Shown here piece by piece: positions 6,661-28,739 of a DNA stretch of 64,000 nt. Origin of the DNA: Thereva unica (taxonomy: Eukaryota; Arthropoda; Insecta; Diptera; Therevidae); contig OX465282.1 in the NCBI GenBank assembly GCA_949987705.1, positions 39,396,039 through 39,460,038 of the forward strand. Direction: 5' to 3'. The translations under genes and the position numbers were made by a program. Numbering within the stretch: position 1 is the first letter of the stretch; every line of letters starts with the position of its first letter. The notes beneath the pieces were generated by a model, which saw only the letters and a program-made list of their open reading frames with translations, was not told the DNA's origin and did no database searches.

Positions 6661-7053
6661 TGGGCGCGGCACCTGCAAGTCCGGGGTCTGAGAGAGGGTA
6701 GGCAGCAAGGGTACTTACTTTTGCCGTTCGTCGGTCGTGTCTTTCGTTGATGTCGTCTAGTGAAGTGTGGTGAACCTTCGCGTAGACTGCAGCGCCGGAT
6801 GAGTTTCTATTGTTTGTTTGTTTTTTATGGGTTTTTGTTCACTATGAATTTTTTTTTGTATGGAATTTAACTTTTTTTATTCATTTTATTTTATTTTATT
6901 TTTTGTTATTTTATTTTAGGGATCACTTCTATTACTGCGAAATTAAGAGACCGGAACAGCAAACGTCCGAACACCTCGCTGTCCCAGTTCTGAATTGCGG
7001 CGTGTCGTTGACTTAATTAATTAGTGCATTTGACATTTGAGCTAGACTTTGAA
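6661..7053 (+). other. BEL/Pao 5' leader, no LTR recognised
   Basis: There is no gene. The stretch contains T-rich runs ending in an acceptor-like TTATTTTAG (~6911-6919) and then leader sequence. No copy of the 3'-flanking sequence (12.3-12.86 kb) is found here, so a 5' LTR cannot be recognised and may be truncated. A 24-bp string at 6988-7011 recurs inside gag at 7719-7742. Confidence 0.4.
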
Positions 7054-10000: not shown

Positions 10001-10686
10001 GAACCGTGTTGGCGGATGTAGGTCGTCTATACGACCCTCTTGGATGGCTTTCTCCTGTCATCATTAATGCAAAAATCTTCATTCAACAACTCTGGCTGGC
10101 TAAAGTCCAGTGGGATGGCGCTTTGCCTAAAGACTTGACGGAATATTGGATTAACTTCAAGCAGAGTTTAACTATACTCCAAGAAATTCACGTGGAGCGG
10201 TGGATAGGAACTTCTAAGGAATCTCACATTGGATTGGAGATTCATGGATTCAGTGATGCTTCGCTGCAAGCGTATGGAGCAGTAGTCTACTTGCGAGTGT
10301 TACATGATTTCGACAACGTACAGATCTCTTTACTTCTGGCCAAAACGAGAGTAAGTCCTATCAAGACTGTATCACTGCCACGACTGGAGTTATGTGGTGC
10401 TGCGCTACTCGCAGAACTCGTTCCTTACCATCAGCATGAGTTGAAACTTGAAGACGTCCCGGTGTATTTGTGGACTGATTCCACCATCGTACTAGCATGG
10501 TTGCGCGAACATCCATCAAAATGGAAAGTATACGTCGCGAACAGAGTAGCACAGATACATCTTCTCATTCCTAGTGCCACTTGGCGGCATGTACGATCAA
10601 GCGACAACCCTGCAGACTGTATAAGTCGAGGTATCCCTCCAGAGCAACTCAAGGACTATAACTTATGGTGGTCCGGCCCACCTTGA
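7054..10686 (+). CDS. BEL/Pao polyprotein, first part: gag, A17 protease, reverse transcriptase, RNase H
   Basis: The first ATG in frame is 7054; the frame is open slightly upstream. Gag resembles the DUF1759 group (KLPKINLPSFSGAYVDWPAFRDTY, ~aa 125-155). Zinc knuckles follow (CVLCQQRH, CFNCLRSNHNTLSC, CQICNNNHHTMLH, ~aa 335-405). The Pao-type protease has ALLDQGSESNFI. RT shows VVFNASQKTSTGLSLND, FAADIEKMFRQI and the catalytic YVDD in NVYVDDALFGA. A later block, RLYDPLGWLSPV, and RNase H-like GFSDASLQAYGAV and LWTDSTIVLAWL complete it. The frame ends at TGA 10684, but the same frame continues through the integrase, so this is probably a single nonsense change in one polyprotein. Confidence 0.87.
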   Translation: MDQLKVKLFTAADRLEKFLTNVLRTGKDKRTEYFLNARLQLLHSYWSTYLKYHDELCELVNTQQLKDDDYFKSDVFSQVECCYIDTSSWLNDQLQSFHVPPTTSEESRLNSTIRPTMASAVKLPKINLPSFSGAYVDWPAFRDTYTSLIHDNDSLSWVQKMHYLKSSLTGEASKLLQHLALTDANYSAAWKILSDRYDNMRMLVSSHLIALIHLTPMSSETASELRRVVDNFTQHVRALENLKRPVDSWNDWLVHFLSSKLDNSTRKDWETSLSSSTQLPLFQDLKSFLESRIHTLNAIKCAGPSRPLTKSAPAATFKATSNSFHSSLSNRCVLCQQRHVVMFCPQFRAKSVDGRIAFVNNKNLCFNCLRSNHNTLSCSSSKRCQICNNNHHTMLHKSSLPIVPDTATPDKPSSAFNQVDSSGSTTSAMLSHANPKVQISSNVNAHLVNNYQPTTTILLATAIVLVRSYDGRLIKAGALLDQGSESNFITTSLVNYLRLPKRKVNISLTMVGAFESDVIKTCVTHEIISSVDPKCSYAVQSLVLPILTQPPPSRHIVRDNWPHISGLELADPEFATPSRIDLILGAEIYARLIRGEIRVGDADAPVAQLTSLGWILSGKAGAAPSGTPTFTSLHCSTTDLDVYLRKFWEIEEPPKTSKLTQEEEECERFFAESHYRNQQGRYVVRLPLKQSPLVLGQSNDIAFSALKRLEHRFSKDQTLYESYSSFMEEYLRLNHMTRVHNPNDYTKANYLPHHAVVKMSSSTTKLRVVFNASQKTSTGLSLNDILHTGPKLQKDIIAILSKWRFYPFIFAADIEKMFRQILVDERDQDLQHILWRESPSHPLQDFRLCTVTYGTACAPYLACKTLQQLSVDYCSEYPSAACILKDNVYVDDALFGAFTKQNAINLRNELRHLLSLGGFNLRKLISNFPELIADIPEADRELRASVQVVRDPQIKALGINWSPTTDQFSFLINLPVTHTITKRTVLADVGRLYDPLGWLSPVIINAKIFIQQLWLAKVQWDGALPKDLTEYWINFKQSLTILQEIHVERWIGTSKESHIGLEIHGFSDASLQAYGAVVYLRVLHDFDNVQISLLLAKTRVSPIKTVSLPRLELCGAALLAELVPYHQHELKLEDVPVYLWTDSTIVLAWLREHPSKWKVYVANRVAQIHLLIPSATWRHVRSSDNPADCISRGIPPEQLKDYNLWWSGPP

Positions 10687-12288
10687 TTAAGGCAGCACCC
10701 ATCAACCTGGCCCGTATCTACTGAAAATCTGTCAAACAATATGCTATACGAGGAACTTCGGCCTCCAGCAACCTTTATTTCTAGACAACAAACTGTTGAG
10801 TTCTCCTTCGCATTACTTTATCGCTATTCATCCCTACAAAGGTTGCTACGAATCACGGCTCTTTGTCTACGATTCGTTAAAAATCTATCAGGAACTGAAG
10901 ATCAGCGCACTACAGGCCCTTTAGGGCTGGAAGAAAGAAATACTGCGCTGGCCACTTGGATCAGGGTTATCCAGCAGCATAGCTTTCCGGAATATAAGCT
11001 ACTATGCAACAAACAGCCGTTACCATCTACAAGCAAACTCCTGAAACTACACCCACTTATGGATAATCAACATATTCTACGTGTTGGAGGACGATTAAAG
11101 GAATCACTGCTTAACTATGATGAGAAATATCCAATAATCTTACCTAAAGACAACTATTTTACTCAACTAGTAATTCAACACGCCCATCTTTCCACCCTGC
11201 ATGGTGGAGTTCAACTTACTCTACACCACCTACGCACTAAGTATTGGATAGTTCATGGGAGAAGCAAGATACGTAAGCTGGTGAGGAACTGTGTTATCTG
11301 CTACCGGTACAGAGCGAGGACAGCCACACAATTTATGAGCGATCTGCCCCCAGACCGAGTACGGCCTAGCAAACCATTTTTAGTCACAGGTGTGGACTAT
11401 GCTGGACCTTTTAATATCACGCCTATTAGACGAAGAGGGTGTAAAAGTACAAAAGCATACGTCGCAGTATTCATATCCCTTGTAACCAGAGCCGTACATC
11501 TTGAGTTGGTAATGGACTTAACAGCAGAAGCCTTCGTGGCAGCGTTTAGACGCTTTGTCAGCCGGCGAGGGAACTGCTCCCGGCTTTACAGTGATAACGC
11601 TACGTATTTTGTCGCCGCGGACAAGCAGCTCTCTACCAACATTAAACAATTGATGAAGGATACTACGACTGCCAACGCCTTACTAGATATTGGAACTGAA
11701 TGGCATTTTATGCCACCCTCTGCCCCTCACTTTGGTGGCATTTGGGAGTCTGGAGTGCGATCATTCAAGCACCACTTGCGGCGCATAGCTGGTGACCACA
11801 TCCTAGCCGTGGACGAAATGTTAACACTGCTCACACAAATTGAGGCGTGCCTTAATTCCCGACCAATGCATGCACTCAGCGACGATCCTAGTGACCTTTC
11901 TGTCATTACTCCTGGTCATTTCCTGGTCGGAGAAGCTCTGTGCACAATCCCGACTCCTAGTATACTGCACACTCCCATTGCACGACTTAACCGCTGGCAG
12001 CTTGTTCAGCATATGTACGAGAGTCTATGGAAAAGGTGGTATAAAGACTATCTCCAGCATCTACAGATTCGACACAAATGGACGCAGAACCAAAACCCAA
12101 TCGAAGTCGGGAACCTAGTATTAGTGAAGGATGACAGGCTTCCACCAGCTAAGTGGCTACTCGGCCGGGTAACTGAAGTCCACCCCGGAAAAGACGGGCA
12201 TGTCCGTGTTGTAACACTTCGTCATAAGGATGGGTTCTATAAGCGTCCTATCACGAAGCTTTGTGTGCTTCCTATTGAAGGTAATTAA
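10687..12288 (+). CDS. BEL/Pao polyprotein, second part: integrase
   Basis: Same reading frame as the upstream part, separated from it only by the TGA at 10684-10686; the first internal ATG is 10741. It has the HHCC-type zinc region (HLSTLHGG ... NCVICYRYRA), then the catalytic core with acidic residues in GVDYAGPF, YSDNATYF and GIWESGVRSFKHHL (D, D, E). A C-terminal segment with WLLGRVTEVHPGKDGHVRVV is the usual DUF5641-like tail of Pao integrases. It would insert cDNA into chromosomes. In this copy it could be made only by readthrough or reinitiation. Confidence 0.85.
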   Translation, partial: LRQHPSTWPVSTENLSNNMLYEELRPPATFISRQQTVEFSFALLYRYSSLQRLLRITALCLRFVKNLSGTEDQRTTGPLGLEERNTALATWIRVIQQHSFPEYKLLCNKQPLPSTSKLLKLHPLMDNQHILRVGGRLKESLLNYDEKYPIILPKDNYFTQLVIQHAHLSTLHGGVQLTLHHLRTKYWIVHGRSKIRKLVRNCVICYRYRARTATQFMSDLPPDRVRPSKPFLVTGVDYAGPFNITPIRRRGCKSTKAYVAVFISLVTRAVHLELVMDLTAEAFVAAFRRFVSRRGNCSRLYSDNATYFVAADKQLSTNIKQLMKDTTTANALLDIGTEWHFMPPSAPHFGGIWESGVRSFKHHLRRIAGDHILAVDEMLTLLTQIEACLNSRPMHALSDDPSDLSVITPGHFLVGEALCTIPTPSILHTPIARLNRWQLVQHMYESLWKRWYKDYLQHLQIRHKWTQNQNPIEVGNLVLVKDDRLPPAKWLLGRVTEVHPGKDGHVRVVTLRHKDGFYKRPITKLCVLPIEGN

Positions 12289-12857: not shown

Positions 12858-12921
12858 TTTGACGTGACAACGTCTATTAAAACGATGAACGCCGGCTGCA
12901 TGCACGAAAAATGATGACTCA
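12858..12921 (+). repeat. Helentron 5'-end-like segment flanking the tandem LTR element (left)
   Basis: Starts GACGTGACAACGTC and ends ATGATGACTCA. The same ~60-bp segment recurs at 25609-25660, beyond the LTR element, with one main difference (CTGC versus CCGC). The last four bases, CTCA, are the left target duplication of the LTR element. Confidence 0.7.
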
Positions 12922-14297
12922 TGTAACGGTCGGTTGAATCCCCCTCGCGGTAATTTGGAAAATTTCTATGAAATCACTTGCCTCAGAACAAAATTTACAA
13001 AATTTGCAAATCAAGTAGGGGAGAAAAGGAAAAATAGGAAAAAATCGGAGGAGACTTGTCAGTTTGGTTTTGTTTTTTTTCGGGGAGGGTGGAAAATGAT
13101 AGACTGTGGCTTGCAACTAGCACGATTTAATGTGTAAATTTGCAAATAATAAATATCCAGTCATATCTACCTCCTTTATATAGTTCCACTATTGTTGGTC
13201 GAATCAGTTAAATAAAACGGGGTTTCGAGTATCCCTCAGTAAGAAGAAATCAATCCAGGAAAAAAATTAAGTGAACTTTGGGCAAGCAGAAGAAAAACCG
13301 TAGGTACTACCCTGAGCAGCGAAACGAGACCTCCTGGCAGGAGTGCGGAAGTAGAGGAATATCCCCTTTCTGGAAATACAAGTATTCACCATACAAAAGA
13401 GAACACAATCCATCTGTAGCTGCAAGCGGCGAAGCTCATCGTCCAGGTATAATTTTCTTGTCATTTTTTGTGCAGTGGAAGAAAGTTTGGTGCGGGAGGT
13501 AGCCAAATTAAATCAGTTTCAAACCACGTCTGCTATTTATCTTCTGGAGCAAGGTCAAGGCAAGAAGTGATAAAAGTCTCATTCTGCGAGAGGAAGCTGT
13601 CATTTTATAATAGCCTAACGATTGGAAACCAAGCAAAGACTTTATAAATGGTTGTGCTTTCACTGTTCCCGTACAACTTTCACGTTGCGATGACACCAGA
13701 TTGTTATGTACTAATTTAAACGAAAGTTCCTTTTCATTCTTTTTTTATTCATTATATAATAAAAACACCACGACACACACCTGACAACAAATTACTATAA
13801 TTAATCTAATTTTATCATTAAATATTGGCTTAAATTTTTTTATTTGTTGCAAAATAATTTTTCTGGTTGTTTTCACATAATTTATGCGTAATTATAATTG
13901 AACACGATATTTGATATTTGTGATACCACTTGTGATTAAAACGAGGCGAAATTGGTACCAATACGACGCGTTTTAAAAATCATTTAGCATACGGAAGTAT
14001 CCCGACAAGGGAAATTGTAAATGTTTTTATTTGAAAAAATGTACATGTGTTGATATATGATGACATTGTTCTAATCGTGACCCCTTGAAGATTGATGTTA
14101 CCTATTGGTGTTTCTAGTTATTTTGTTAATGTGTCTGCAATAAACGAGAAAAATTGTTAAGCTATTAAGAATGAACTCAAGTTGTTAGATTTTTTCTTGG
14201 GAATGGTTGGGACGGATGACTTCCTTTTCAGGGTTTGACGCGTCGCAGACGATGATCGGAAAAGGATGATGGCGGAATTCAAGTTACATAGTCACAG

Positions 14298-14303
14298 GTA
14301 AGT
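14298..14303 (+). promoter_or_regulatory. Conserved splice donor in the LTR
   Basis: CAG followed by GTAAGT, with the GT at 14298 (also 19823 and 25347). The context CAGGTAAGTGGTGAACCA is shared with the diverged LTR fragment at 28149-28166. A pyrimidine-rich acceptor ending TTTTTTTTTCAG lies at ~14730. Splicing is inferred. Confidence 0.5.
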
Positions 14304-14325
14304 GGTGAACCAGCCTCGGTAAGCC

Positions 14326-14379
14326 CCGGCCACACACCCCACGACCCCTCCGGCGAGCTAGACAACTCCGTGTGGCCGG
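14326..14379 (+). other. Conserved RNA stem in the LTR (CCGGCCACAC / GTGTGGCCGG)
   Basis: Perfect 10-bp arms at 14326-14335 and 14370-14379, present in all three LTRs. They are also found at 28181-28190 and 28226-28235 in a related LTR whose surrounding sequence has diverged. Confidence 0.55.
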
Positions 14380-14522
14380 CGTAGGAGTTCCGGATTTTCT
14401 TTTTATTCTTATGTATGGTGTTGGCTCCTTGGCCATGCTCTTCCGGGCTTTTGGCTAAGGGGGTAACACCTCGCATAAGTGGCGCCCACTATTTAGATCG
14501 CGCCATTATGCTGTTACATAAA

Positions 14523-14534
14523 TGGCGCCCAACG
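14523..14534 (+). promoter_or_regulatory. tRNA-Lys primer-binding site, unit 1
   Basis: TGGCGCCCAACG, four bases after the LTR end. It is complementary to the 3' end of eukaryotic tRNA-Lys(CUU), including the CCA. This is the same primer class used by Gypsy-type errantiviruses. Confidence 0.75.
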
Positions 14535-15710
14535 ATGCTTTTAAAGCCCGTTGACTGTCCTACACGGACCCTGAAGTTTGAATTTTTTTTGTTTAGTACC
14601 ACTTGTGCCTTCACGGACAACATTTGATTTTTTTGTTTATGGTTCACCACTGTTACCCAGCGCTCGCTGTGGGCTAAGGTAGTACCGCGAAGCCTTAGTC
14701 CTTGTCTGTCGTGTCGATTTTTTTTTTCAGCATCTGTGTCCAAATTCTAGGTGAATTTTTATTTGTCTTCGCTTTTAGGCCTACCCGTTCTATTCAGCGG
14801 TAACTTCTTCTTTTTGGAGTAGCTTCGAACCATGCTGACCTGCACGGCTTGCTAACAAGCGAGTGGTCGCTTGGCTATGCGTGCAGGTGTAGTAGGGGTT
14901 CATCCCTGTCCTGTTTCTAGGGTCGGCGACTCTGGTATCAGGCGTGATACCGCCTGCCACTGCGTCGGTCCTTGAACAGGATCATCTTTTAATTTTCCTG
15001 GTGGAAGTTGAAGTTGGGACAAGGGCTTAACCGTCTTTGGTAACAGGCGTGTTAACGCCTGCCACTGCGCCCCTTGTTCCTTCGGAAGGTCCATTCAGCT
15101 TTTTAAATTCTAATTTTTTGTTTACGTCCTGAGTTTTTTCCGTCTGGTTCATCCCAACTGATTGATTTTCCGAAAGGTAGCTCAGTTGTGGTTGAACAGC
15201 GGATTCCCCAAATTTTTTTATTTCTGAAGAAGTTTCCCTTTCGTGACTATGCCCTTTGACTTTTTGTTTCCGTCCTTCGTTCGGGGCAGACCTGAAGCTG
15301 GGTCGGCGACCTGGATGACACCTGGTGATGACTATGCTTCATAGTTTTCACCAGCTGGCATCGAGGCCATCGACATGCGGGAGTCCTGAGGGGAATTGTT
15401 ATCCGTCTCAACCATTCCTCGCTTATACTGAATTAAAGCCCATAATCACCTCACCTACACTACCATATATAGGCACTAATACACTTTGGCTGTTTTATCG
15501 CTATTCACTAATCAGCGTTGGTTGTGTTTTTTTTTGAGGTATACTCACATAATTTCAATATTTATTTGATTTGTTATTAGGCATTTGTTGTTATACTAAT
15601 TGCTGTTGATTTTATTGGCTGTTCTATTTTAATCTATTTTCACAAAAAAAAAATTTTTTTTTCCTCTTCGATTCTTCGGGGCGTGGTGGTTGCTACTGTC
15701 CTCGGTAGTC
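14535..15710 (+). other. Leader of the internal region, unit 1 (no protein recognised)
   Basis: About 1.2 kb with no recognised coding domain. It has a pyrimidine-rich acceptor-like site at ~14730 and a duplicated motif (GGCGTGATACCGCC at ~14942 and GGCGTGTTAACGCC at ~15047, each followed by TGCCACTGCG). Both motifs are imperfect palindromes. No gag homology is seen. Confidence 0.5.
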
Positions 15711-16262
15711 ATGGTTGATACTTGCGGACGCACGTATTATGGCCTGCCCCTTGCGCACAAGAAGCTGCGTAGGCCACATTGTCGTTCGACTCTATCTCCG
15801 TTTGCGAAGGAATTCGTTCCTAAGGCTAAACGGGTTGTCATGTCACACTCACTGGACGAGGTCACAGCATTGAGTTATCTTTTCGAGGTGATGAATAGGT
15901 TAACAGATATTCCGGGATCGTTCGATACCATTGCGTCGAGAATCTTAACTATATTTTTCGATATTAAGAATAATCCCTGGGTGTTAAGTCAGGCAATGGA
16001 GGGTATCTTCTATCGTTGCGTGGCGGAACCGGCGTTGTGCGTTACGGGAGCAAAATTATATGGGCTGCTGGATTCAATGAATCCCGAAAAGGGTAGTGCC
16101 TTTAGAAGTCTATTTAGATTACTGTTGGCCGAGCTGCAGAGGCTACTTAGGCAGGACGGACTGAATGGTCGTAGGTTACGAGGGGTCGAGTTGTTCTTGT
16201 CGGCCGTAAGTACCCATACCCTTCGACGATCAGTTAAGGCGCCCGGAAAAAAAGTCAACTAA
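15711..16262 (+). CDS. Captured PAIP1-like protein (PAM2 motif plus MIF4G-like region), unit 1
   Basis: 183 aa from the first ATG. Residues ~26-38 read STLSPFAKEFVPK, matching the PAM2 consensus (L-x-P-x-A-x-E-F-x-P) that binds the MLLE domain of poly(A)-binding protein. Residues ~48-168 resemble the first part of a PAIP1-type MIF4G domain: LSYLFEVMNRLTDIPGSFD, a helix ending in GAKLYGLLDSM, then FRSLFRLLLAELQR and LRGVELFLSAV. In metazoans PAIP1 bridges PABP and eIF4F to stimulate translation of polyadenylated mRNA. The protein is short for PAIP1, so the C-terminal part of MIF4G may be missing. No introns are visible, consistent with capture from a spliced transcript. Reasonably sure of the family, not of activity. 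Confidence 0.68.
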   Translation: MVDTCGRTYYGLPLAHKKLRRPHCRSTLSPFAKEFVPKAKRVVMSHSLDEVTALSYLFEVMNRLTDIPGSFDTIASRILTIFFDIKNNPWVLSQAMEGIFYRCVAEPALCVTGAKLYGLLDSMNPEKGSAFRSLFRLLLAELQRLLRQDGLNGRRLRGVELFLSAVSTHTLRRSVKAPGKKVN

Positions 16263-17247
16263 TGCATTTTTCATTATCGTTTTGTTGGCGCCATCATTTT
16301 TTTATACGTTAATTTAGAGTAAAATTAAATATAACAGATCTACACATATATGTGTTTTTTTAAGACGGTTATTTGGTAAAGTTTAATAAGGAAATATAAT
16401 TTTACAAATTTAAATGCAACGAATTTGTAGTATTAACGATTTTATCATCAGGATTTTAGTGGTCTAAACATAACCAAGTCCTTTTACAATATTTATCAGT
16501 CAAAATCAGTTGTGCGGAACTCTGCTTAAATTGTCAGTGGTCGGCGAGAATTTTTTTTGGTTTGTAAGGTTATTTTTAAAGCCGGATTTATTTCCATCTC
16601 AACTCGAAATGTTCGAAGCAAAAATGGTTCAGTATCCAAGATGATGTATTAACGCTTTAATTCCCACCGTGCAACCCCAGCGCCAAAAATCTCGAAAACA
16701 GCCTTAATGGTATTAAAAAGAATAAAGAAAGAATCCATTCGAAGTGACTTGACTTCTAACGCACACTCCCGGTGCGGCCTCGGCCCGGCGTTTATAATTA
16801 AATTCAAGTTTATATTTGTCAAGAAAACTTCAGGGTCACGGAATCTGCAGTCATGGTTGCTGGTAATAAAGCAAAGCATCGATTTTTTTATTGATTGAAG
16901 TTTATATTAAGAAATCGCCAGTGAAAACTAGAAATTATGCGGTATTTTTTTTGAAATTTTTGGACAAGAAATTTTTTTCATTGTGACCTCCACCATCTTG
17001 AAAAACTGCTGTCACCCCTTGTATGAGTTCGGTGTATGAGATTTATTAAGAACAACAAAATTAGAGTCGGACATACAGAGTCCGAATGGTTCTAAAGGGT
17101 AACAAAAGATAACCTACAAGGAATTGCTTGTATTTAAGAATAATTCTTAATTGTTTACAGTGTTGATTGAGATTTATCGAATATTTCGGGAAATAATTTA
17201 AACATTGGTGTGTCGCACACACTGGTGCCGCTGCAGCCCCACTGGTA
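16263..17247 (+). other. Non-coding stretch of the internal region, unit 1
   Basis: AT-rich with no recognised protein. A short inverted pair, GTCGGACATACAGAGTCCGA (~17067-17086), and stop-rich frames are all I see. A 206-aa antisense frame (17061-17681, minus) mirrors the ORF on the other strand and is not favoured. Confidence 0.4.
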
Positions 17248-17667
17248 TTGGAAGTAAATTCAGATTCCTTTGTTGGTGAATTTAATAGTTTATCTAGGAA
17301 AGGTACAACAAATAGTATTGTGAAGCGATTGGCAAAATTATTTACACCAAGAAGTCCGCTGGCTCGGCCGACAACAATCACAATGGACACAGTTGGCACC
17401 AATAATATGCGCCAACTGCCGCAACAAATGCTTACGTCAGAAGAGGCCCTTGAAGCAATGAACGCCCAGGAGAGTGAGGTTATTATTGAGCCACCAGAGG
17501 CTGATAGTTTAGCTGCTAATGATGTTACTAATATGCAAATTGCTCCAACGCCTGATCTAACTGCAGTGAGCATGGATGACCCTAGTTCAGTTTGCTGTGA
17601 ACGTGATCGATCAGAAGCGACCTTCTCATCTGCTGTGGAGAATCTTTCAAAATTAGAGGATTCGTAA
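17248..17667 (+). CDS. Unidentified acidic ORF in the tandem LTR element, unit 1
   Basis: 139 aa from a TTG at 17248; the frame is open further upstream (a short Ala run precedes it) and the first ATG is 17383, so the true start is unknown and it may be an exon. It is rich in Ser, Thr, Glu and Asp. A basic patch, VKRLAKLFTPRSPLARP, precedes a low-complexity acidic tail. I do not recognise the family. It is repeated with an identical deduced protein in unit 2. In a second frame just downstream (17669-17869) another open segment begins QPEAKSLRFFLHSELVRS and ends at TAA, probably from the same captured gene after a frame change. Confidence 0.4.
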   Translation: MEVNSDSFVGEFNSLSRKGTTNSIVKRLAKLFTPRSPLARPTTITMDTVGTNNMRQLPQQMLTSEEALEAMNAQESEVIIEPPEADSLAANDVTNMQIAPTPDLTAVSMDDPSSVCCERDRSEATFSSAVENLSKLEDS

Positions 17668-17668
17668 T

Positions 17669-18010
17669 CAGCCTGAAGCAAAGTCTCTTAGATTTTTTTT
17701 ACACAGTGAACTGGTTAGAAGCACCTCAGCAGAACCTGCACTCCATCGAGAAGACATCCGAAAAATTGAACCTATTCAGAATTGGGGTCGTGACTTAACG
17801 CTCCTAGGGTTCCAATCAAACCTCACAACGAAAATTGAGAATCTTCACAAGCTGAATAACTTATTATGGTAAAGTGAGCAATTAATGTTATTGGAAAAAC
17901 TGCACTTCTTGGAATCGCTCGATAACCTAGGTTTAACACTAACTTTTATCGGAGAACTAACTGGTGTTGGAAGTCTTCGAAGAAATTACCCCTTGCAAAG
18001 TAAGTCCTAA
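17669..18010 (+). pseudogene. Second captured coding remnant, unit 1 (unidentified)
   Basis: An open segment reads FFLHSELVRSTSAEPALHRED ... LLGFQSNLTTKIENLHKLN and stops at TAA 17870-17872. The next stretch resumes with SEQLMLLEKLHFLESL and FIGELTGVGSLRRNYPLQ. It then meets AAAGTAAGT near 18000, which looks like an exon end and splice donor. This reads like degraded host coding sequence; the source gene is not recognised. The same text is at ~23194-23536 in unit 2. Confidence 0.4.
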
Positions 18011-18301
18011 CAGTTTTGTCACAGCTAGAATAACTTAATGAAAAAAATATTAACATTTCGGATAGGATGCATCCGTGAAAGATTTTTAAGTCAAACCGAG
18101 AGCGCTTGGTACAAGAAGACAGTAGATACCAGGATTATTTTAGACCTTTCTCGCCCGTTTTACCTCTTTATTTAATACGTTTCACATAAGATCCATTAAC
18201 AGATAAATCAGTTAACTTTAATGATAGATTTGAATTTTCGGAAGAACTTATATTGTATAAATGGCTGATTGAAAAGCAATCAACCTCAGCTATATCTAGA
18301 A

Positions 18302-18370
18302 GCCCGGCTAGCTCACTAGAACATGAGACTCCTATTCTCAGGTCGTGAGTCGAGTCCCACATTGGCGCCA
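18302..18370 (+). pseudogene. tRNA-Lys pseudogene with CCA tail, unit 1
   Basis: 69 nt matching tRNA-Lys(CUU) in order: GCCCGGCTAGCTCA, the anticodon stem ATGAGACTC...TCTCAGG, a T-arm GTGAGTCGAGTCCCAC, and an acceptor end TTGGCGCCA. Bases are missing from the D-loop, T-loop and acceptor stem, and the anticodon is altered, so it is not a functional tRNA. The genomic CCA suggests reverse transcription of a mature tRNA. It sits ~76 bp upstream of the next LTR, and tRNA-Lys is also the primer class of this element. Confidence 0.7.
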
Positions 18371-18446
18371 AAGATATTAGACCTACGGCGACCGTTTTTT
18401 TCGGCTCCTCACTGCCTCGCGAGTCGGCTTTGTGGACCCGAGGGTA

Positions 18447-20043
18447 TGTAACGGTCGGTTGAATCCCCCTCGCGGTAATTTGGAAAATTTCTATGAAATC
18501 ACTTGCCTCAGAACAAAATTTACAAAATTTGCAAATCAAGTAGGGGAGAAAAGGAAAAATAGGAAAAAATCGGAGGAGACTTGTCAGTTTGGTTTTGTTT
18601 TTTTTCGGGGAGGGTGGAAAATGATAGACTGTGGCTTACAACTAGCACGATTTAATGTGTAAATTTGCAAATAATAAATATCCAGTCATATCTACCTCCT
18701 TTATATAGTTCCACTATTGTTGGTCGAATCAGTTAAATAAAACGGGGTTTCGAGTATCCCTCAGTAAGAAGAAATCAATCCAGGAAAAAAATTAAGTGAA
18801 CTTTGGGCAAGCAGAAGAAAAACCGTAGGTACTACCCTGAGCAGCGAAACGAGACCTCCTGGCAGGAGTGCGGAAGTAGAGGAATATCCCCTTTCTGGAA
18901 ATACAAGTATTCACCATACAAAAGAGAACACAATCCATCTGTAGCTGCAAGCGGCGAAGCTCATCGTCCAGGTATAATTTTCTTGTCATTTTTTGTGCAG
19001 TGGAAGAAAGTTTGGTGCGGGAGGTAGCCAAATTAAATCAGTTTCAAACCACGTCTGCTATTTATCTTCTGGAGCAAGGTCAAGGCAAGAAGTGATAAAA
19101 GTCTCATTCTGCGAGAGGAAGCTGTCATTTTATAATAGCCTAACGATTGGAAACCAAGCAAAGACTTTATAAATGGTTGTGCTTTCACTGTTCCCGTACA
19201 ACTTTCACGTTGCGATGACACCAGATTGTTATGTACTAATTTAAACGAAAGTTCCTTTTCATTCTTTTTTTATTCATTATATAATAAAAACACCACGACA
19301 CACACCTGACAACAAATTACTATAATTAATCTAATTTTATCATTAAATATTGGCTTAAATTTTTTTATTTGTTGCAAAATAATTTTTCTGGTTGTTTTCA
19401 CATAATTTATGCGTAATTATAATTGAACACGATATTTGATATTTGTGATACCACTTGTGATTAAAACGAGGCGAAATTGGTACCAATACGACGCGTTTTA
19501 AAAATCATTTAGCATACGGAAGTATCCCGACAAGGGAAATTGTAAATGTTTTTATTTGAAAAAATGTACATGTGTTGATATATGATGACATTGTTCTAAT
19601 CGTGACCCCTTGAAGATTGATGTTACCTATTGGTGTTTCTAGTTATTTTGTTAATGTGTCTGCAATAAACGAGAAAAATTGTTAAGCTATTAAGAATGAA
19701 CTCAAGTTGTTAGATTTTTTCTTGGGAATGGTTGGGACGGATGACTTCCTTTTCAGGGTTTGACGCGTCGCAGACGATGATCGGAAAAGGATGATGGCGG
19801 AATTCAAGTTACATAGTCACAGGTAAGTGGTGAACCAGCCTCGGTAAGCCCCGGCCACACACCCCACGACCCCTCCGGCGAGCTAGACAACTCCGTGTGG
19901 CCGGCGTAGGAGTTCCGGATTTTCTTTTTATTCTTATGTATGGTGTTGGCTCCTTGGCCATGCTCTTCCGGGCTTTTGGCTAAGGGGGTAACACCTCGCA
20001 TAAGTGGCGCCCACTATTTAGATCGCGCCATTATGCTGTTACA
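18447..20043 (+). repeat. LTR 2 (shared central LTR)
   Basis: 1597 bp. The clearest difference from LTR 1 is TTACAACTAG versus TTGCAACTAG near 18641. It serves as the 3' LTR of unit 1 and the 5' LTR of unit 2. Confidence 0.9.
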
Positions 20044-20047
20044 TAAA

Positions 20048-20059
20048 TGGCGCCCAACG
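20048..20059 (+). promoter_or_regulatory. tRNA-Lys primer-binding site, unit 2
   Basis: TGGCGCCCAACG at the same four-base offset from the LTR end as in unit 1. Confidence 0.75.
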
Positions 20060-21236
20060 ATGCTTTTAAAGCCCGTTGACTGTCCTACACGGACCCTGAA
20101 GTTTGAATTTTTTTTTGTTTAGTACCACTTGTGCCTTCACGGACAACATTTGATTTTTTTGTTTATGGTTCACCACTGTTACCCAGCGCTCGCTGTGGGC
20201 TAAGGTAGTACCGCGAAGCCTTAGTCCTTGTCTGTCGTGTCGATTTTTTTTTTCAGCATCTGTGTCCAAATTCTAGGTGAATTTTTATTTGTCTTCGCTT
20301 TTAGGCCTACCCGTTCTATTCAGCGGTAACTTCTTCTTTTTGGAGTAGCTTCGAACCATGCTGACCTGCACGGCTTGCTAACAAGCGAGTGGTCGCTTGG
20401 CTATGCGTGCAGGTGTAGTAGGGGTTCATCCCTGTCCTGTTTCTAGGGTCGGCGACTCTGGTATCAGGCGTGATACCGCCTGCCACTGCGTCGGTCCTTG
20501 AACAGGATCATCTTTTAATTTTCCTGGTGGAAGTTGAAGTTGGGACAAGGGCTTAACCGTCTTTGGTAACAGGCGTGTTAACGCCTGCCACTGCGCCCCT
20601 TGTTCCTTCGGAAGGTCCATTCAGCTTTTTAAATTCTAATTTTTTGTTTACGTCCTGAGTTTTTTCCGTCTGGTTCATCCCAACTGATTGATTTTCCGAA
20701 AGGTAGCTCAGTTGTGGTTGAACAGCGGATTCCCCAAATTTTTTTATTTCTGAAGAAGTTTCCCTTTCGTGACTATGCCCTTTGACTTTTTGTTTCCGTC
20801 CTTCGTTCGGGGCAGACCTGAAGCTGGGTCGGCGACCTGGATGACACCTGGTGATGACTATGCTTCATAGTTTTCACCAGCTGGCATCGAGGCCATCGAC
20901 ATGCGGGAGTCCTGAGGGGAATTGTTATCCGTCTCAACCATTCCTCGCTTATACTGAATTAAAGCACATAATCACCTCACCTACACTACCATATATAGGC
21001 ACTAATACACTTTGGCTGTTTTATCGCTATTCACTAATCAGCGTTGGTTGTGTTTTTTTTTGAGGTATACTCACATAATTTCAATATTTATTTGATTTGT
21101 TATTAGGCATTTGTTGTTATACTAATTGCTGTTGATTTTATTGGCTGTTCTATTTTAATCTATTTTCACAAAAAAAAAATTTTTTTTTCCTCTTCGATTC
21201 TTCGGGGCGTGGTGGTTGCTACTGTCCTCGGTAGTC
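20060..21236 (+). other. Leader of the internal region, unit 2
   Basis: Near-identical to unit 1 positions 14535-15710, with one extra T in a T-run near 20115 and one C-to-A change near 20966. No protein is recognised. Confidence 0.5.
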
Positions 21237-21788
21237 ATGGTTGATACTTGCGGACGCACGTATTATGGCCTGCCCCTTGCGCACAAGAAGCTGCGTAGGC
21301 CACATTGTCGTTCGACTCTATCTCCGGTTGCGAAGGAATTCGTTCCTAAGGCTAAACGGGTTGTCATGTCACACTCACTGGACGAGGTCACAGCATTGAG
21401 TTATCTTTTCGAGGTGATGAATAGGTTAACAGATATTCCGGGATCGTTCGATACCATTGCGTCGAGAATCTTAACTATATTTTTCGATATTAAGAATAAT
21501 CCCTGGGTGTTAAGTCAGGCAATGGAGGGTATCTTCTATCGTTGCGTGGCGGAACCGGCGTTGTGCGTTACGGGAGCAAAATTATATGGGCTGCTGGATT
21601 CAATGAATCCCGAAAAGGGTAGTGCCTTTAGAAGTCTATTTAGATTACTGTTGGCCGAGCTGCAGAGGCTACTTAGGCAGGACGGACTGAATGGTCGTAG
21701 GTTACGAGGGGTCGAGTTGTTCTTGTCGGCCGTAAGTACCCATACCCTTCGACGATCAGTTAAGGCGCCCGGAAAAAAAGTCAACTAA
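21237..21788 (+). CDS. Captured PAIP1-like protein, unit 2
   Basis: 183 aa, identical to the unit 1 protein except at residue 31, inside the PAM2 motif, where Phe becomes Val (STLSPVAKEFVPK). That position is variable in the PAM2 consensus, so PABP binding could be kept. Both copies remain open, which fits a young duplication and does not by itself show selection. Confidence 0.68.
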   Translation: MVDTCGRTYYGLPLAHKKLRRPHCRSTLSPVAKEFVPKAKRVVMSHSLDEVTALSYLFEVMNRLTDIPGSFDTIASRILTIFFDIKNNPWVLSQAMEGIFYRCVAEPALCVTGAKLYGLLDSMNPEKGSAFRSLFRLLLAELQRLLRQDGLNGRRLRGVELFLSAVSTHTLRRSVKAPGKKVN

Positions 21789-22772
21789 TGCATTTTTCAT
21801 TATCGTTTTGTTGGCGCCATCATTTTTTTATACGTTAATTTAGAGTAAAATTAAATATAACAGATCTACACATATATGTGTTTTTTAAGACGGTTATTTG
21901 GTAAAGTTTAATAAGGAAATATAATTTTACAAATTTAAATGCAACGAATTTGTAGTATTAACGATTTTATCATCAGGATTTTAGTGGTCTAAACATAACC
22001 AAGTCCTTTTACAATATTTATCAGTCAAAATCAGTTGTGCGGAACTCTGCTTAAATTGTCAGTGGTCGGCGAGAATTTTTTTTGGTTTGTAAGGTTATTT
22101 TTAAAGCCGGATTTATTTCCATCTCAACTCGAAATGTTCGAAGCAAAAATGGTTCAGTATCCAAGATGATGTATTAACGCTTTAATTCCCACCGTGCAAC
22201 CCCAGCGCCAAAAATCTCGAAAACAGCCTTAATGGTATTAAAAAGAATAAAGAAAGAATCCATTCGAAGTGACTTGACTTCTAACGCACACTCCCGGTGC
22301 GGCCTCGGCCCGGCGTTTATAATTAAATTCAAGTTTATATTTGTCAAGAAAACTTCAGGGTCACGGAATCTGCAGTCATGGTTGCTGGTAATAAAGCAAA
22401 GCATCGGTTTTTTTATTGATTGAAGTTTATATTAAGAAATCGCCAGTGAAAACTAGAAATTATGCGGTATTTTTTTTGAAATTTTTGGACAAGAAATTTT
22501 TTTCATTGTGACCTCCACCATCTTGAAAAACTGCTGTCACCCCTTGTATGAGTTCGGTGTATGAGATTTATTAAGAACAACAAAATTAGAGTCGGACATA
22601 CAGAGTCCGAATGGTTCTAAAGGGTAACAAAAGATAACCTACAAGGAATTGCTTGTATTTAAGAATAATTCTTAATTGTTTACAGTGTTGATTGAGATTT
22701 ATCGAATATTTCGGGAAATAATTTAAACATTGGTGTGTCGCACACACTGGTGCCGCTGCAGCCCCACTGGTA
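21789..22772 (+). other. Non-coding stretch of the internal region, unit 2
   Basis: Same content as 16263-17247, with a one-base deletion in the T-run near 21885 and an A-to-G change near 22407. No gene is seen. Confidence 0.4.
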
Positions 22773-23192
22773 TTGGAAGTAAATTCAGATTCCTTTGTTG
22801 GTGAATTTAATAGTTTATCTAGGAAAGGTACAACAAATAGTATTGTGAAGCGATTGGCAAAATTATTTACACCAAGAAGTCCGCTGGCTCGGCCGACAAC
22901 AATCACAATGGACACAGTTGGCACCAATAATATGCGCCAACTGCCGCAACAAATGCTTACGTCAGAAGAGGCCCTTGAAGCAATGAACGCCCAGGAGAGT
23001 GAGGTTATTATTGAGCCACCAGAGGCTGATAGTTTAGCTGCTAATGATGTTACTAATATGCAAATTGCTCCAACGCCTGATCTAACTGCAGTGAGCATGG
23101 ATGACCCTAGTTCAGTTTGCTGTGAACGTGATCGATCAGAAGCGACCTTCTCATCTGCTGTGGAGAATCTTTCAAAATTAGAGGATTCGTAA
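22773..23192 (+). CDS. Unidentified acidic ORF, unit 2
   Basis: 139 aa with the same deduced sequence as the unit 1 copy, and the same caveats: TTG at the listed start, frame open upstream, family not recognised. The captured remnant and the stop that follow it (to ~23536) are also duplicated. Confidence 0.4.
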   Translation: MEVNSDSFVGEFNSLSRKGTTNSIVKRLAKLFTPRSPLARPTTITMDTVGTNNMRQLPQQMLTSEEALEAMNAQESEVIIEPPEADSLAANDVTNMQIAPTPDLTAVSMDDPSSVCCERDRSEATFSSAVENLSKLEDS

Positions 23193-23826
23193 TCAGCCTG
23201 AAGCAAAGTCTCTTAGATTTTTTTTACACAGTGAACTGGTTAGAAGCACCTCAGCAGAACCTGCACTCCATCGAGAAGACATCCGAAAAATTGAACCTAT
23301 TCAGAATTGGGGTCGTGACTTAACGCTCCTAGGGTTCCAATCAAACCTCACAACGAAAATTGAGAATCTTCACAAGCTGAATAACTTATTATGGTAAAGT
23401 GAGCAATTAATGTTATTGGAAAAACTGCACTTCTTGGAATCGCTCGATAACCTAGGTTTAACACTAACTTTTATCGGAGAACTAACTGGTGTTGGAAGTC
23501 TTCGAAGAAATTACCCCTTGCAAAGTAAGTCCTAACAGTTTTGTCACAGCTAGAATAACTTAATGAAAAAAATATTAACATTTCGGATAGGATGCATCCG
23601 TGAAAGATTTTTAAGTCAAACCGAGAGCGCTTGGTACAAGAAGACAGTAGATACCAGGATTATTTTAGACCTTTCTCGCCCGTTTTACCTCTTTATTTAA
23701 TACGTTTCACATAAGATCCATTAACAGATAAATCAGTTAACTTTAATGATAGATTTGAATTTTCGGAAGAACTTATATTGTATAAATGGCTGATTGAAAA
23801 GCAATCAACCTCAGCTATATCTAGAA

Positions 23827-23895
23827 GCCCGGCTAGCTCACTAGAACATGAGACTCCTATTCTCAGGTCGTGAGTCGAGTCCCACATTGGCGCCA
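23827..23895 (+). pseudogene. tRNA-Lys pseudogene with CCA tail, unit 2
   Basis: Identical by eye to the unit 1 copy and at the same distance from the following LTR. Confidence 0.7.
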
Positions 23896-23971
23896 AAGAT
23901 ATTAGACCTACGGCGACCGTTTTTTTCGGCTCCTCACTGCCTCGCGAGTCGGCTTTGTGGACCCGAGGGTA

Positions 23972-25567
23972 TGTAACGGTCGGTTGAATCCCCCTCGCGG
24001 TAATTTGGAAAATTTCTATGAAATCACTTGCCTCAGAACAAAATTTACAAAATTTGCAAATCAAGTAGGGGAGAAAAGGAAAAATAGGAAAAAATCGGAG
24101 GAGACTTGTCAGTTTGGTTTTGTTTTTTTTCGGGGAGGGTGGAAAATGATAGACTGTGGCTTACAACTAGCACGATTTAATGTGTAAATTTGCAAATAAT
24201 AAATATCCAGTCATATCTACCTCCTTTATATAGTTCCACTATTGTTGGTCGAATCAGTTAAATAAAACGGGGTTTCGAGTATCCCTCAGTAAGAAGAAAT
24301 CAATCCAGGAAAAAATTAAGTGAACTTTGGGCAAGCAGAAGAAAAACCGTAGGTACTACCCTGAGCAGCGAAACGAGACCTCCTGGCAGGAGTGCGGAAG
24401 TAGAGGAATATCCCCTTTCTGGAAATACAAGTATTCACCATACAAAAGAGAACACAATCCATCTGTAGCTGCAAGCGGCGAAGCTCATCGTCCAGGTATA
24501 ATTTTCTTGTCATTTTTTGTGCAGTGGAAGAAAGTTTGGTGCGGGAGGTAGCCAAATTAAATCAGTTTCAAACCACGTCTGCTATTTATCTTCTGGAGCA
24601 AGGTCAAGGCAAGAAGTGATAAAAGTCTCATTCTGCGAGAGGAAGCTGTCATTTTATAATAGCCTAACGATTGGAAACCAAGCAAAGACTTTATAAATGG
24701 TTGTGCTTTCACTGTTCCCGTACAACTTTCACGTTGCGATGACACCAGATTGTTATGTACTAATTTAAACGAAAGTTCCTTTTCATTCTTTTTTTATTCA
24801 TTATATAATAAAAACACCACGACACACACCTGACAACAAATTACTATAATTAATCTAATTTTATCATTAAATATTGGCTTAAATTTTTTTATTTGTTGCA
24901 AAATAATTTTTCTGGTTGTTTTCACATAATTTATGCGTAATTATAATTGAACACGATATTTGATATTTGTGATACCACTTGTGATTAAAACGAGGCGAAA
25001 TTGGTACCAATACGACGCGTTTTAAAAATCATTTAGCATACGGAAGTATCCCGACAAGGGAAATTGTAAATGTTTTTATTTGAAAAAATGTACATGTGTT
25101 GATATATGATGACATTGTTCTAATCGTGACCCCTTGAAGATTGATGTTACCTATTGGTGTTTCTAGTTATTTTGTTAATGTGTCTGCAATAAACGAGAAA
25201 AATTTTTAAGCTATTAAGAATGAACTCAAGTTGTTAGATTTTTTCTTGGGAATGGTTGGGACGGATGACTTCCTTTTCAGGGTTTGACGCGTCGCAGACG
25301 ATGATCGGAAAAGGATGATGGCGGAATTCAAGTTACATAGTCACAGGTAAGTGGTGAACCAGCCTCGGTAAGCCCCGGCCACACACCCCACGACCCCTCC
25401 GGCGAGCTAGACAACTCCGTGTGGCCGGCGTAGGAGTTCCGGATTTTCTTTTTATTCTTATGTATGGTGTTGGCTCCTTGGCCATGCTCTTCCGGGCTTT
25501 TGGCTAAGGGGGTAACACCTCGCATAAGTGGCGCCCACTATTTAGATCGCGCCATTATGCTGTTACA
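23972..25567 (+). repeat. LTR 3 of the tandem retroelement
   Basis: 1596 bp. It differs from LTR 2 by one A fewer near 24311 and one G-to-T change near 25205. It ends GTTACA and is followed by CTCATTGTCC; CTCA matches the left flank. Confidence 0.9.
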
Positions 25568-25817
25568 CTCATTGTCCCGTTATGTCCCGTAGTAATTTTG
25601 ACGTGACAACGTCTATTAAAACGATGAACGCCGGCCGCATGCACGAAAAATGATGACTCATTGTCCCGTTATGTCCCGTTATCTCCCGAAGTAATTTTAA
25701 AAATTTGATCGTAGTAATCTTAAAAATTTGATTAAAATTGTCAATATTTAATTAGATTAAACTTGTCAAATTGTCAACAATAAGCAAAGCAAGCCAAACA
25801 CCCTGTCTCCTAACTGG

Positions 25818-26205
25818 GTGCCGGTGTATATGAAAATAGTGAACATTACACTGACGAAAACTGTGAAATGCAAACGAAAACAGTTTCCTTGCGTTCCTGC
25901 TTGTGCTATTACCATTCACAACTCGCAAGGTGGAACGTTTACTGTTATTGTTTGTAAATACTCCTCGGAGCAACCACAACAGTTGGTGTACGTGGCGCTG
26001 AGTCGGGTAACGAATATAGACGGCTTGCACATCATCACGGAAAAAGATGCGCCTTTTATCTTCAAACATGGACGGGATGGGAACGACTCACAGACTACGC
26101 GAGATGTCCGTAACGAATACATTCGACTCCGTGGACACACCCTTCAAACAATCACTTCGAAAGCAGTGAAATTTTTTGATGACGGTAACAACGCTGGGCA
26201 AGCTC
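25818..26205 (+). pseudogene. Helentron PIF1-like helicase, C-terminal end
   Basis: The deduced sequence has RKQFPCVPACAITIHNSQG and QQLVYVALSRVTNIDGLHI, the terminal helicase motifs (TIHxSQG and YVALSRV) of PIF1/Helitron helicases, here with HNSQG. The tail DVRNEYIRLRG leads into LINE B sequence. N-terminal Rep and the earlier helicase motifs are absent here. The full protein would unwind DNA for rolling-circle-like transposition. Confidence 0.7.
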
Positions 26206-27064
26206 AACCCCTCAACCCCTGTGTCAAATTCAACCCCTCCAAAACCAAGTACTGTCTTATCTCCAAAAAGAAGCTCAACACCTCTCCACCCTTGAGAGTG
26301 GATGGAGTTCAACTAATGGCCGACCATCCTTGCACATCTTAGGCGTGACATTAGCGAAAGACTTGGGATGGAATGACCACATATTCCAAATCGCCAAACA
26401 AGCATCGCAGTGCTTGGGATTTCTTAAGAGGTGCAAGTTCCTTTTCCAGCCATCGGCTAGTGCTGTTATTTATAAATCCTACATTCGGCCTCTTCTCGAA
26501 TATAACTCCCTCGTTTGGGGCGCCACCCCACTAACCACCTTGGCATGGTTAGATAAAGTGCAAAAAAGGGCGCTCAAATTAATTGATGACGACACCGCCT
26601 GCTCCACCATCGACCCCTTGAGCCACCGTAGGAATGTAGCATCACTGACAAAATTTTATCGCTACTATCATAGTGACTGTTCTTCCTAGTTAAACGCTCT
26701 CCTGCCTCCACGGCAATCTTATACCCGCAACACCAGATTAGCCCACTCGTCTCATTCCCTTCACCTGCAACTACCCCTTTCACGCACTCAACAAGATATG
26801 AATTCGTTTGTTAATAGAACAACTCGACTGTGGAATAACTTCTCGCAGTCAGTATTTCCGAACTCTTACAACATCCAAGAGTTCAAACGCAGGGTTCATC
26901 ACCACCTTCTTCAATACCCCCCCGTACCTTTTAATCCTTAACCTATACCCCCCCTCACCCCTCCCCCGTACTAAGCTTACTGCTAGACATTGCACCATGA
27001 CGTGACAAATGACATGACGGACTAGTAGTACAAAGGGTGACTTAGCACTGCCACATAAAAAAAA
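26206..27064 (+). mobile_element. LINE B copy 2, 5'-truncated
   Basis: Begins in the RT C-terminal part (VKFNPSKTKYCLIS), continues through LGVTLAKDLGWNDHIFQIAKQASQCLGFLKRC and TTRLWNN, and ends in the shared 3' tail (GACATTGCACC, then poly-A at ~27055). A frame change and a stop at ~26686 disable it. Typical incomplete LINE integration. Confidence 0.8.
26330..26689 (+). pseudogene. LINE B RT C-terminal fragment (copy 2)
   Basis: About 119 aa matching the C-terminal ORF2 region of the copy at 58.3-58.7 kb (IYKSYIRPLLEYNSLVWG, LDKVQKRALKLI, SHRRNVASL). It stops early at TAG near 26687, while homologous sequence goes on in the DNA to ~26940. Confidence 0.7.
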
Positions 27065-27959: not shown

Positions 27960-28396
27960 TTACAGACAACAAATTTTTTTTGGAATGGTTGTGGCGGAAT
28001 TTATTTCTCCTCCAGGTTTTTAGGTGGTGTATTTCCTTGTCAGGTGATGGTTATCTATACTATCAACTGGCAAGGGAACGGACGACGAAGACTCGGCTCC
28101 GGCGATGCCCGAAGGATGATCTGAACGGAAGATGAATTATCATAGTCCCAGGTAAGTGGTGAACCATGAGAAGTATAGGCCCGGCCACACACCCCACGAC
28201 CCCAACTGGCGAGCTAGTGAACTCCGTGTGGCCGGCAGCATGTCCCCCTAACAGAAGGATCGGCAATTGGGGGGAACCGATTTGTTTTATGTCTGGGATT
28301 GCGCTCTTGGTCAGGCTTTTCCGGGCTTCTGGCTAAGTGGGGCAATACCTCGCATAAAGGGCGCCCATTGCATACTCGCGCCATTACGTTGCTACA
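27960..28396 (+). repeat. Partial LTR related to the tandem LTR retroelement
   Basis: Diverged copy of the last ~430 bp of the 12.9-25.6-kb LTRs. Shared blocks include CAGGTAAGTGGTGAACCA, the CCGGCCACAC/GTGTGGCCGG stem, GGCGAGCTAG, GGGCTTCTGGCTAAG, CGCATAA and GGCGCCCA, ending GCTACA. No primer site or internal region follows, so it is a solo or truncated LTR of a sister family. It holds no gene. Confidence 0.65.
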
Positions 28397-28739
28397 AAAT
28401 TATTCTTTATCATACCGTTATATATTTAAAAAGTTCACCCAATGTTGCCAGACGTTGCCTATTGAACGTAAACCTCCTCCACTCATAGTGTGAGGTCTAT
28501 TATATGCATACACAGCTGTGATTATTCTGACGAAATTTTCAATGAAACTTTAATACTGATAGAGGATTTATGAATATCAATCAACCGCAAAGTTCAAATT
28601 CGACACGATTCAGAAATGCTGTGTAGAACAGAGAGTTGGGGCGAGAACAGTAATTCAACGTAAATCAGCTAAAACATTTCGTTTAATCTCAGGCAAGACA
28701 GTTAGTTGCTGATCAATAAAATCCCACGACAAAGGAAAT

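Follow-up and report, generated by a model that had tools for sequence, protein, structure and literature searches.

A PAIP1-like gene behind a candidate shunt-type leader in a non-autonomous long terminal repeat retrotransposon of the fly Thereva unica

A tandem element with a PAIP1-like gene

The window analysed here is a stretch of 64,000 nucleotides (nt) from the fly Thereva unica (contig OX465282.1, positions 39,396,039 to 39,460,038 of the forward strand). Two tandem units of a Ty3/gypsy-type, non-autonomous long terminal repeat (LTR) retrotransposon, an assignment that is strongly supported, occupy positions 12922 to 25567, where three LTRs enclose two internal regions (Table 1). The LTRs run from TG to CA, a 4-bp target duplication lies outside them, and one to three pairwise differences separate the three LTRs and five the two internal regions. 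Each internal region carries an intact open reading frame (ORF) of 183 amino acids (aa) that joins a PAM2 motif to a MIF4G-like region, and neither has gag or pol; structure, frames and profile searches agree on these points with the original prediction, which was made from the sequence of the window. Stop-to-stop frames in the element reach 209 codons at most, a length equalled or exceeded in 3 of 500 shuffled versions of the internal region; frames of gag or pol size are thus absent.

Profile comparisons relate the ORF to PAIP1. The translation of copy 1 contains the PAM2 motif STLSPFAKEFVPK, in which copy 2 has one altered residue (SPF to SPV). In Pfam single-sequence searches, the window ORF gave sub-threshold matches to PAM2 (E = 0.0027, 17.7 bits; cut-off 20) and to MIF4G (E = 0.18, 11.9 bits; cut-off 30.8), and a search of solved structures with its sequence returned human PAIP1 as the best match (E = 0.027). 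When a profile built from 15 vertebrate PAIP1 proteins was searched against the 2023 stop-to-stop ORF pieces of the window, the two copies ranked first and second (E = 4e-5 and 6e-5; next piece, E = 1.9), and the score of 19.4 bits exceeded the highest among 5000 shuffles (5.3 bits) by 14 bits. The alignment by hhalign (E = 1.4e-5) runs from PAM2 into MIF4G. Six element proteins taken together reached E = 1.9e-14 over 194 columns in a profile–profile comparison with PAIP1, and E = 2.6e-13 with human PAIP1 among solved structures. The agreement of the PAIP1 profile, the shuffles, hhalign and the profile–profile comparison indicates that the sub-threshold Pfam matches exceed chance. With a low-confidence single-sequence model, Foldseek placed human PAIP1 second (E = 0.38), with the top probability among the 50 rows shown; a model guided by the PAIP1 alignment, which is not independent, placed PAIP1 first (E = 0.013), with eIF4G and DAP5 near the top.

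The element protein shares with PAIP1 the order of its two parts, PAM2 and then MIF4G, and differs from it in being encoded by an LTR element. An N-terminal motif, T.YGLP....LRRP, is invariant in the six element proteins and has no counterpart in the vertebrate PAIP1 proteins aligned, and no apparent counterpart of the PAIP1-type C-terminal region is seen in the six aligned element proteins. Within PAM2, the invariant residues are S26, L28, S29, P30, E34, F35, V36 and P37 (alignment numbering). The window protein is 41–85% identical to five element relatives and 22–29% identical to four vertebrate PAIP1 proteins. The PAIP1-like identity of the gene and its existence as a family are hardly in doubt. 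The proposal that a retroelement carries a PAIP1-like gene is thus borne out by the PAM2, MIF4G and PAIP1 matches of the profile searches, with one correction: a MIF4G-like region does follow PAM2, and the 183-aa form holds only about its first half.

Copies of the gene and a gag-pol partner

The genome search covered a 910-Mb assembly, and the copy counts refer to first-look candidates or best-scored lists. With the ORF as a DNA query, 40 matches were obtained from 215 first-look candidates; besides the two of the window, all 38 best-scoring copies are open (35 at 183 aa, three at 200–202 aa), an open fraction that is biased upward because these are the best-scoring ones. Two follow-ups proposed with the original prediction, the counting of copies and the ratio of nonsynonymous to synonymous substitution rates (dN/dS) across them, were carried out in part. 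For the former, a protein search gave 169 matches from 275 first-look candidates; among the 150 listed, which range from 100% to 40% identity and are sometimes partial, a stop lies within 14 and the other 136 are free of stops. It is therefore strongly supported that, among the matches listed, the PAIP1-like gene stays open down to about 40% identity. The existence of copies elsewhere in the genome also settles the mobility of the element; the tandem shape is the product expected from recombination between LTRs, and an assembly effect at this single locus is possible.

Five divergent copies were studied with their flanks (L190 to L194), and all of them have LTR-end or 3′-end homology to the window element. 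Both LTRs are present in L190, L192 and L193 (the 5′ LTR of L193 is incomplete at the locus edge), with one to four gap positions and no mismatches, and the flanks of L190 and L192 also show 4-bp duplications. The frames measure 183 aa in L190, 267 in L191, 259 in L192, 301 in L193 and 254 in L194; four of the five are thus 254–301 aa long, and in three the MIF4G match extends further than in the window form. L193 exceeds both Pfam cut-offs (MIF4G, 43.4 bits against 30.8; PAM2, 21.4 against 20), and its match to human PAIP1 has E = 1.8e-8. PAM2 falls just below its cut-off in L190 (19.8 bits) and L194 (19.9) and reaches 15.1 bits in L191, and MIF4G lies under its cut-off in L190, L191, L192 and the window. 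L194 also has, downstream of its PAIP1-like ORF and on the minus strand (L194:2430-3140), a 237-codon frame with a Myb/SANT-like DNA-binding domain (E = 1.6e-7), which could be either a second cargo or a nested element.

The half-length MIF4G of the window form keeps alive a reading in which the protein serves as a decoy or RNA protector, occupying poly(A)-binding protein (PABP) through PAM2 and either sequestering it from host factors or protecting the poly(A) tails of the element from deadenylation, instead of recruiting initiation factors. PAM2 residues are among the invariant ones, and window-type copies that lack the second MIF4G half are still intact and numerous. However, L193 has a long form whose MIF4G is above the Pfam cut-off, together with LTRs that are free of mismatches over the part available, and Pfam gave no PAM2 in L192; we regard a decoy as unlikely.

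The selection measurements cover close copies and L190 only. In a tree built from 37 distinct ORF sequences, where observed substitutions were compared with expected ones, there are 25 synonymous, 33 nonsynonymous and one stop change on the internal branches (expected: 16.8, 39.9 and 2.3), an observed/expected N/S ratio of 0.56 (P = 0.038 for nonsynonymous changes being so few); the terminal branches carry 19, 32 and none (expected: 14.2, 35.0 and 1.9). Pairwise dN/dS, mostly below 1, is 0.50 between the window and L190, and 0.34, 0.35, 0.37, 0.39, 0.67 and 1.02 against six other copies. The substitution pattern makes modest purifying selection on the PAIP1-like ORF very probable.

Captured gene fragments are known in LTR elements, and the gene could likewise be a passenger, a host gene fragment captured once and copied along without function. 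The window subfamily does have a second open frame, of 156 codons, for which a homolog search found none; downstream of the PAIP1-like ORF there is no match in the five divergent elements, and in two further loci (L116 and L122) homology to the window ends about 320–360 nt downstream of that ORF. A mere passenger is nevertheless improbable given the stop-free matches down to 40% identity (best-scoring candidates only), the values of dN/dS below 1 in most comparisons, and the conservation of PAM2 and of the N-terminal motif. Maize Bs1 and the elements called LARD (large retrotransposon derivatives) and TRIM (terminal-repeat retrotransposons in miniature) are non-autonomous LTR elements with captured genes. 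The window element resembles them in retaining LTRs and a priming site, in lacking gag-pol and in being presumably mobilised in trans, and differs in that one gene is intact over diverged subfamilies and bears signs of selection.

An autonomous Ty3/gypsy gag-pol partner that shares the LTR, the leader and the 3′ end is strongly supported in the same genome. A search with 900 nt of the leader gave 40 matches from 1011 first-look candidates, 16 of which were examined, chosen for having no adjacent ORF match. Thirteen of the 16 comprise the leader, a common tract of about 230–260 nt, a gag-sized frame of 370 or 377 codons, pol and the same 3′ end; in 11 of these pol occupies one frame, of 1136 or 1186 codons, and in L138 and L142 it is split. 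Of the remaining three loci, L128 is divided by an insertion, L136 lacks the 5′ half of the PAIP1-like ORF and L143 has one 955-codon frame. Pfam, run on pieces of L140 only, identified Ty3_capsid, Retrotrans_gag and a zinc knuckle, as well as protease, reverse transcriptase, RNase H and integrase. The partner thus has the CCHC-type gag and the pol order (protease, reverse transcriptase, RNase H, integrase) of Ty3/gypsy elements, and its gag is a different protein from the PAIP1-like ORF, which is accordingly not a gag, the identity that would have refuted the original prediction. The LTR matches over its full length in L130 and L141 (98.7–98.8%) and only in its 3′ part in nine partner loci (about 90–93%); no LTR match was found in L138 and L142 within the sequence stretch examined.

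Because the flanking leader and 3′ end match, the PAIP1-like segment occupies the gag-pol position of the partner; beyond 15648, a weak likeness to the partner is visible by eye. Homology resumes at a tRNA-like segment (Rfam tRNA, 15.8 bits; cut-off 29), which we take to resemble tRNA-Lys and to have a CCA-like end. Across its 71 positions, 12 of the 15 partner or derivative loci have 0–4 ungapped mismatches (L142 has 12, L135 27 and L129 39), and L190 to L194 have 7, 27, 4, 4 and 42, respectively, the L194 stretch ending inside the segment. The putative primer-binding site, TGGCGCCCAACG, presumably fits tRNA-Lys. Contrary to the Ty3/gypsy norm, no polypurine tract lies beside the 3′ LTR of the window element, positions 18387–18446 being without a purine run longer than five, and two partner loci have the same 3′ end without such a tract.

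The RNA leader

The leader, which spans U5 and the 5′ internal region, is highly structured. Positions 14197–15418 fold at z = −10.5 (60 shuffles), compared with −0.35, +2.9 and +0.3 for three controls of equal length, and all five elements aligned give values from −8.3 to −13.4 (24 shuffles each), the five being related and not independent. A basal helix closes the fold with a pairing probability of at least 0.99. In four divergent elements, 74 of its 84 cells are still standard pairs, with changes from G–U to A–U and from A–U to G–C, and one A–U to G–C double change occurs in all four; the 10 non-pairing cells fall at four positions, with 14217/15401 unpaired in all four. Across the whole fold (409 pairs, in a structure derived from the window), 92.3% of cells pair, against 39–48% when the structure is slid.

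A short upstream ORF (uORF) precedes the helix. Its aligned counterparts, of three to five codons, stop 11–15 nt ahead of the helix in all five elements and encode four different peptides; in L192 and L193, in-frame upstream AUGs extend it to six and up to 10 codons, respectively. Among 15 partner or derivative loci, 12 have the uORF 9–13 nt from the helix, and the other three have no recognisable ascending arm in the stretch examined. Many additional AUGs occur within the leader. Behind the helix, 292 nt are without AUG in the window (chance about 0.009), and the AUG of the ORF comes first; L190 likewise has none between helix and ORF. The partner has no AUG in the first 400 nt at 13 of 13 loci (in L129, L131 and L141 the anchor is absent and the count begins near the locus edge); its first AUG has the same context and opens a frame of 369 codons at 12 loci and of 40 codons in L138.

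This arrangement resembles the leaders of cauliflower mosaic virus (CaMV) and rice tungro bacilliform virus (RTBV), for which the passages on shunting in a 2018 review describe a short uORF, a basal helix for take-off, a splice donor, an AU-rich landing tract and a first long ORF (PMC5902531). The same passages place the uORF 7–8 nt from the helix in RTBV and rice tungro spherical virus, and they describe the peptide and the arm sequence as unimportant (PMC5902531). As far as those descriptions go, the window element shares the large folded leader, with a uORF that stops shortly ahead of its basal helix, and the long ORF downstream; its donor and its AU-rich stretch are candidate counterparts of the splice donor and the landing tract. 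It differs in that it is an LTR element that integrates, in having a Ty3-type gag-pol partner, in having the primer site within the leader and in its PAIP1-like candidate helper. The leader is somewhat likely to be of the shunt type. Membership of the Caulimoviridae, which are non-integrating and have no LTRs, is ruled out by the LTRs, the target-site duplication and the Ty3-type partner with integrase.

Alternatively, the leader could act as an internal ribosome entry site or be bypassed by splicing, without shunting. The candidate donor CAG/GTAAGT at 14298 is identical in the five aligned elements and in an old LTR near 28150, and acceptor-like sites lie downstream of it, for example at 14731. 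However, the spacing between uORF and helix is kept while the peptide changes, which neither entry nor splicing requires, and a simple acceptor scan listed none between 15290 and the ORF; on balance this alternative is rather unlikely. The old LTR end (28090-28399) is 71% identical to the LTR of the element family, with the stretch CAGGTAAGTGGTGAACC and the arms CCGGCCACAC and GTGTGGCCGG unchanged.

The leaders of L190, L192, L193 and L194 are 91–93% identical, compared with 62% (L192), 64–75% (L193) and 58–66% (L194) for the alignable ORF DNA; the gap points either to a strongly constrained RNA or to recurrent exchange with the partner. Two 38-nt modules in the leader (14927-14964 and 15032-15069), 105 nt apart and 87% identical, are nearly unchanged across the five aligned elements and may be protein-binding or packaging sites. 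Conservation of the leader well above that of the ORF in L192 to L194, and the leader and 3′ end in common with the partner, would suit a packaging adaptor, in which the protein links the partner Gag to poly(A)/PABP or leader RNA, encapsidation in trans is aided and the leader is mainly a packaging or dimerisation signal. Against this, the gag-pol copies at 13 of the 16 leader loci examined do without the ORF, and Pfam matched no Gag- or RNA-binding domain in the element proteins. A packaging role for the protein is correspondingly improbable.

Features beyond the element were also recorded. It was inserted into a repeat, an undisturbed copy of which adjoins it on the right; a helicase C-terminal piece (UvrD_C_2) at 25818-26342 is perhaps part of a Helitron-like repeat that received the element. 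Directly upstream, at 7024-12288, lies an element of the BEL/Pao group, which is found in animals, with open Pao peptidase and integrase frames. A 312-codon gag-like frame at 36081-37016 matches PNMA (E = 9.4e-5, 22.3 bits; cut-off 25).

Table 1. Coordinates of the element and its parts within the window
Feature	Position	Strand	Remarks
Target-site duplication CTCA, left copy	12918..12921	.	right flank has repeat copy of undisturbed site
LTR 1	12922..14518	+	1597 bp, TGTAAC...GTTACA
Short uORF MNSSC*	14171..14188	+	stop 11 nt ahead of basal helix
Structured RNA leader, U5 and 5′ internal region	14200..15418	+	about 1.2 kb
Basal helix, ascending arm	14200..14220	+	21 bp
Candidate splice donor	14298..14303	+	identical in five aligned elements and old LTR
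Internal region 1	14519..18446	+	3928 bp
Putative primer-binding site	14523..14534	+	4 nt inside 5′ LTR junction
Basal helix, descending arm	15398..15418	+	21 bp
Candidate landing tract before ORF	15419..15710	+	AU-rich (67%), AUG-free
Segment without BLAST match in autonomous partner	15649..18301	+	approximate limits
PAIP1-like ORF, copy 1	15711..16262	+	183 aa; PAM2 (residues 26-39) and N-terminal half of MIF4G
156-codon open frame	17197..17664	+	coding-like base periodicity
tRNA-like segment before 3′ LTR	18302..18372 (also 23827-23897)	+	common to autonomous partner
LTR 2	18447..20043	+	1597 bp, common to both tandem units
Internal region 2	20044..23971	+	3928 bp
PAIP1-like ORF, copy 2	21237..21788	+	intact
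LTR 3	23972..25567	+	1596 bp
Target-site duplication CTCA, right copy	25568..25571	.	

A possible element-encoded initiation adaptor

Mobile elements depend on host translation factors. We propose that this non-autonomous LTR element may encode its own PABP-binding adaptor, one that would favour initiation on RNAs carrying the leader, and from the sequence evidence we give this reading a probability of roughly one half. The element RNA would begin with the uORF, the folded leader and the AU-rich tract, followed by the PAIP1-like ORF. Ribosomes would translate the uORF, shunt over the leader and initiate at the PAIP1-like ORF, whose product would use PAM2 to bind PABP on the poly(A) tail and MIF4G to recruit initiation factors to RNAs with the leader. 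More of the element's own RNA would be translated, and perhaps more of the RNA of the mobilising partner. Since many related copies keep the gene open, its use for the translation of the element's own RNA is suggested. The adaptor role of the protein, considered by itself, is tentative. The wider claim is more speculative: that the encoded adaptor sustains the element family, a PAIP1-type protein behind a pararetrovirus-like shunt leader preferring leader RNAs, the gag-pol RNA of the partner included.

Several results weigh against this proposal. As regards the protein, 0 of 227 candidates from a search of 5.8 billion proteins, a set that includes vertebrate PAIP1, reached E ≤ 0.01, Pfam found no PAM2 in L192 and no MIF4G in L194, and the window form has only about half of MIF4G. 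As regards selection, the N/S ratio of the terminal branches (0.68) is not significant (P = 0.23), and two of the six further dN/dS comparisons are high (1.02 and 0.67). As regards the leader, double-change pairs (10 of 409) are not in excess over slid versions (6–13) and therefore do not establish covariation across the fold as a whole; the older relatives L192, L193 and L194 have one, one and three AUGs between helix and ORF; and L191 gave no leader match in the 3.2 kb examined upstream of its ORF. Splicing from the strong candidate donor in the leader could remove the structure. Moreover, leader and ORF need not have co-evolved, because leaders may be swapped by recombination.

CaMV encodes a translation helper, TAV, to which the PAIP1-like protein would be the counterpart here. 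TAV raises shunting two- to threefold, and the relevant passages of the 2018 review state that no TAV-like activator is known outside the Caulimoviridae (PMC5902531). If the proposal is true, this would be a first case, beyond the plant pararetroviruses, of an element encoding a translation activator like TAV, with a different protein as its basis. An element that carries its own PABP-binding initiation adaptor, kept over diverged subfamilies, would represent a new strategy. The copies would also provide a natural set of minimal PAM2–MIF4G proteins, including half-MIF4G forms, for studies of PAIP1 function. Combined with a leader of the shunt type, in an LTR element of an animal, it would raise a testable question, namely whether a selfish element tunes the translation of its own and its helper's RNA through an initiation factor that it encodes.

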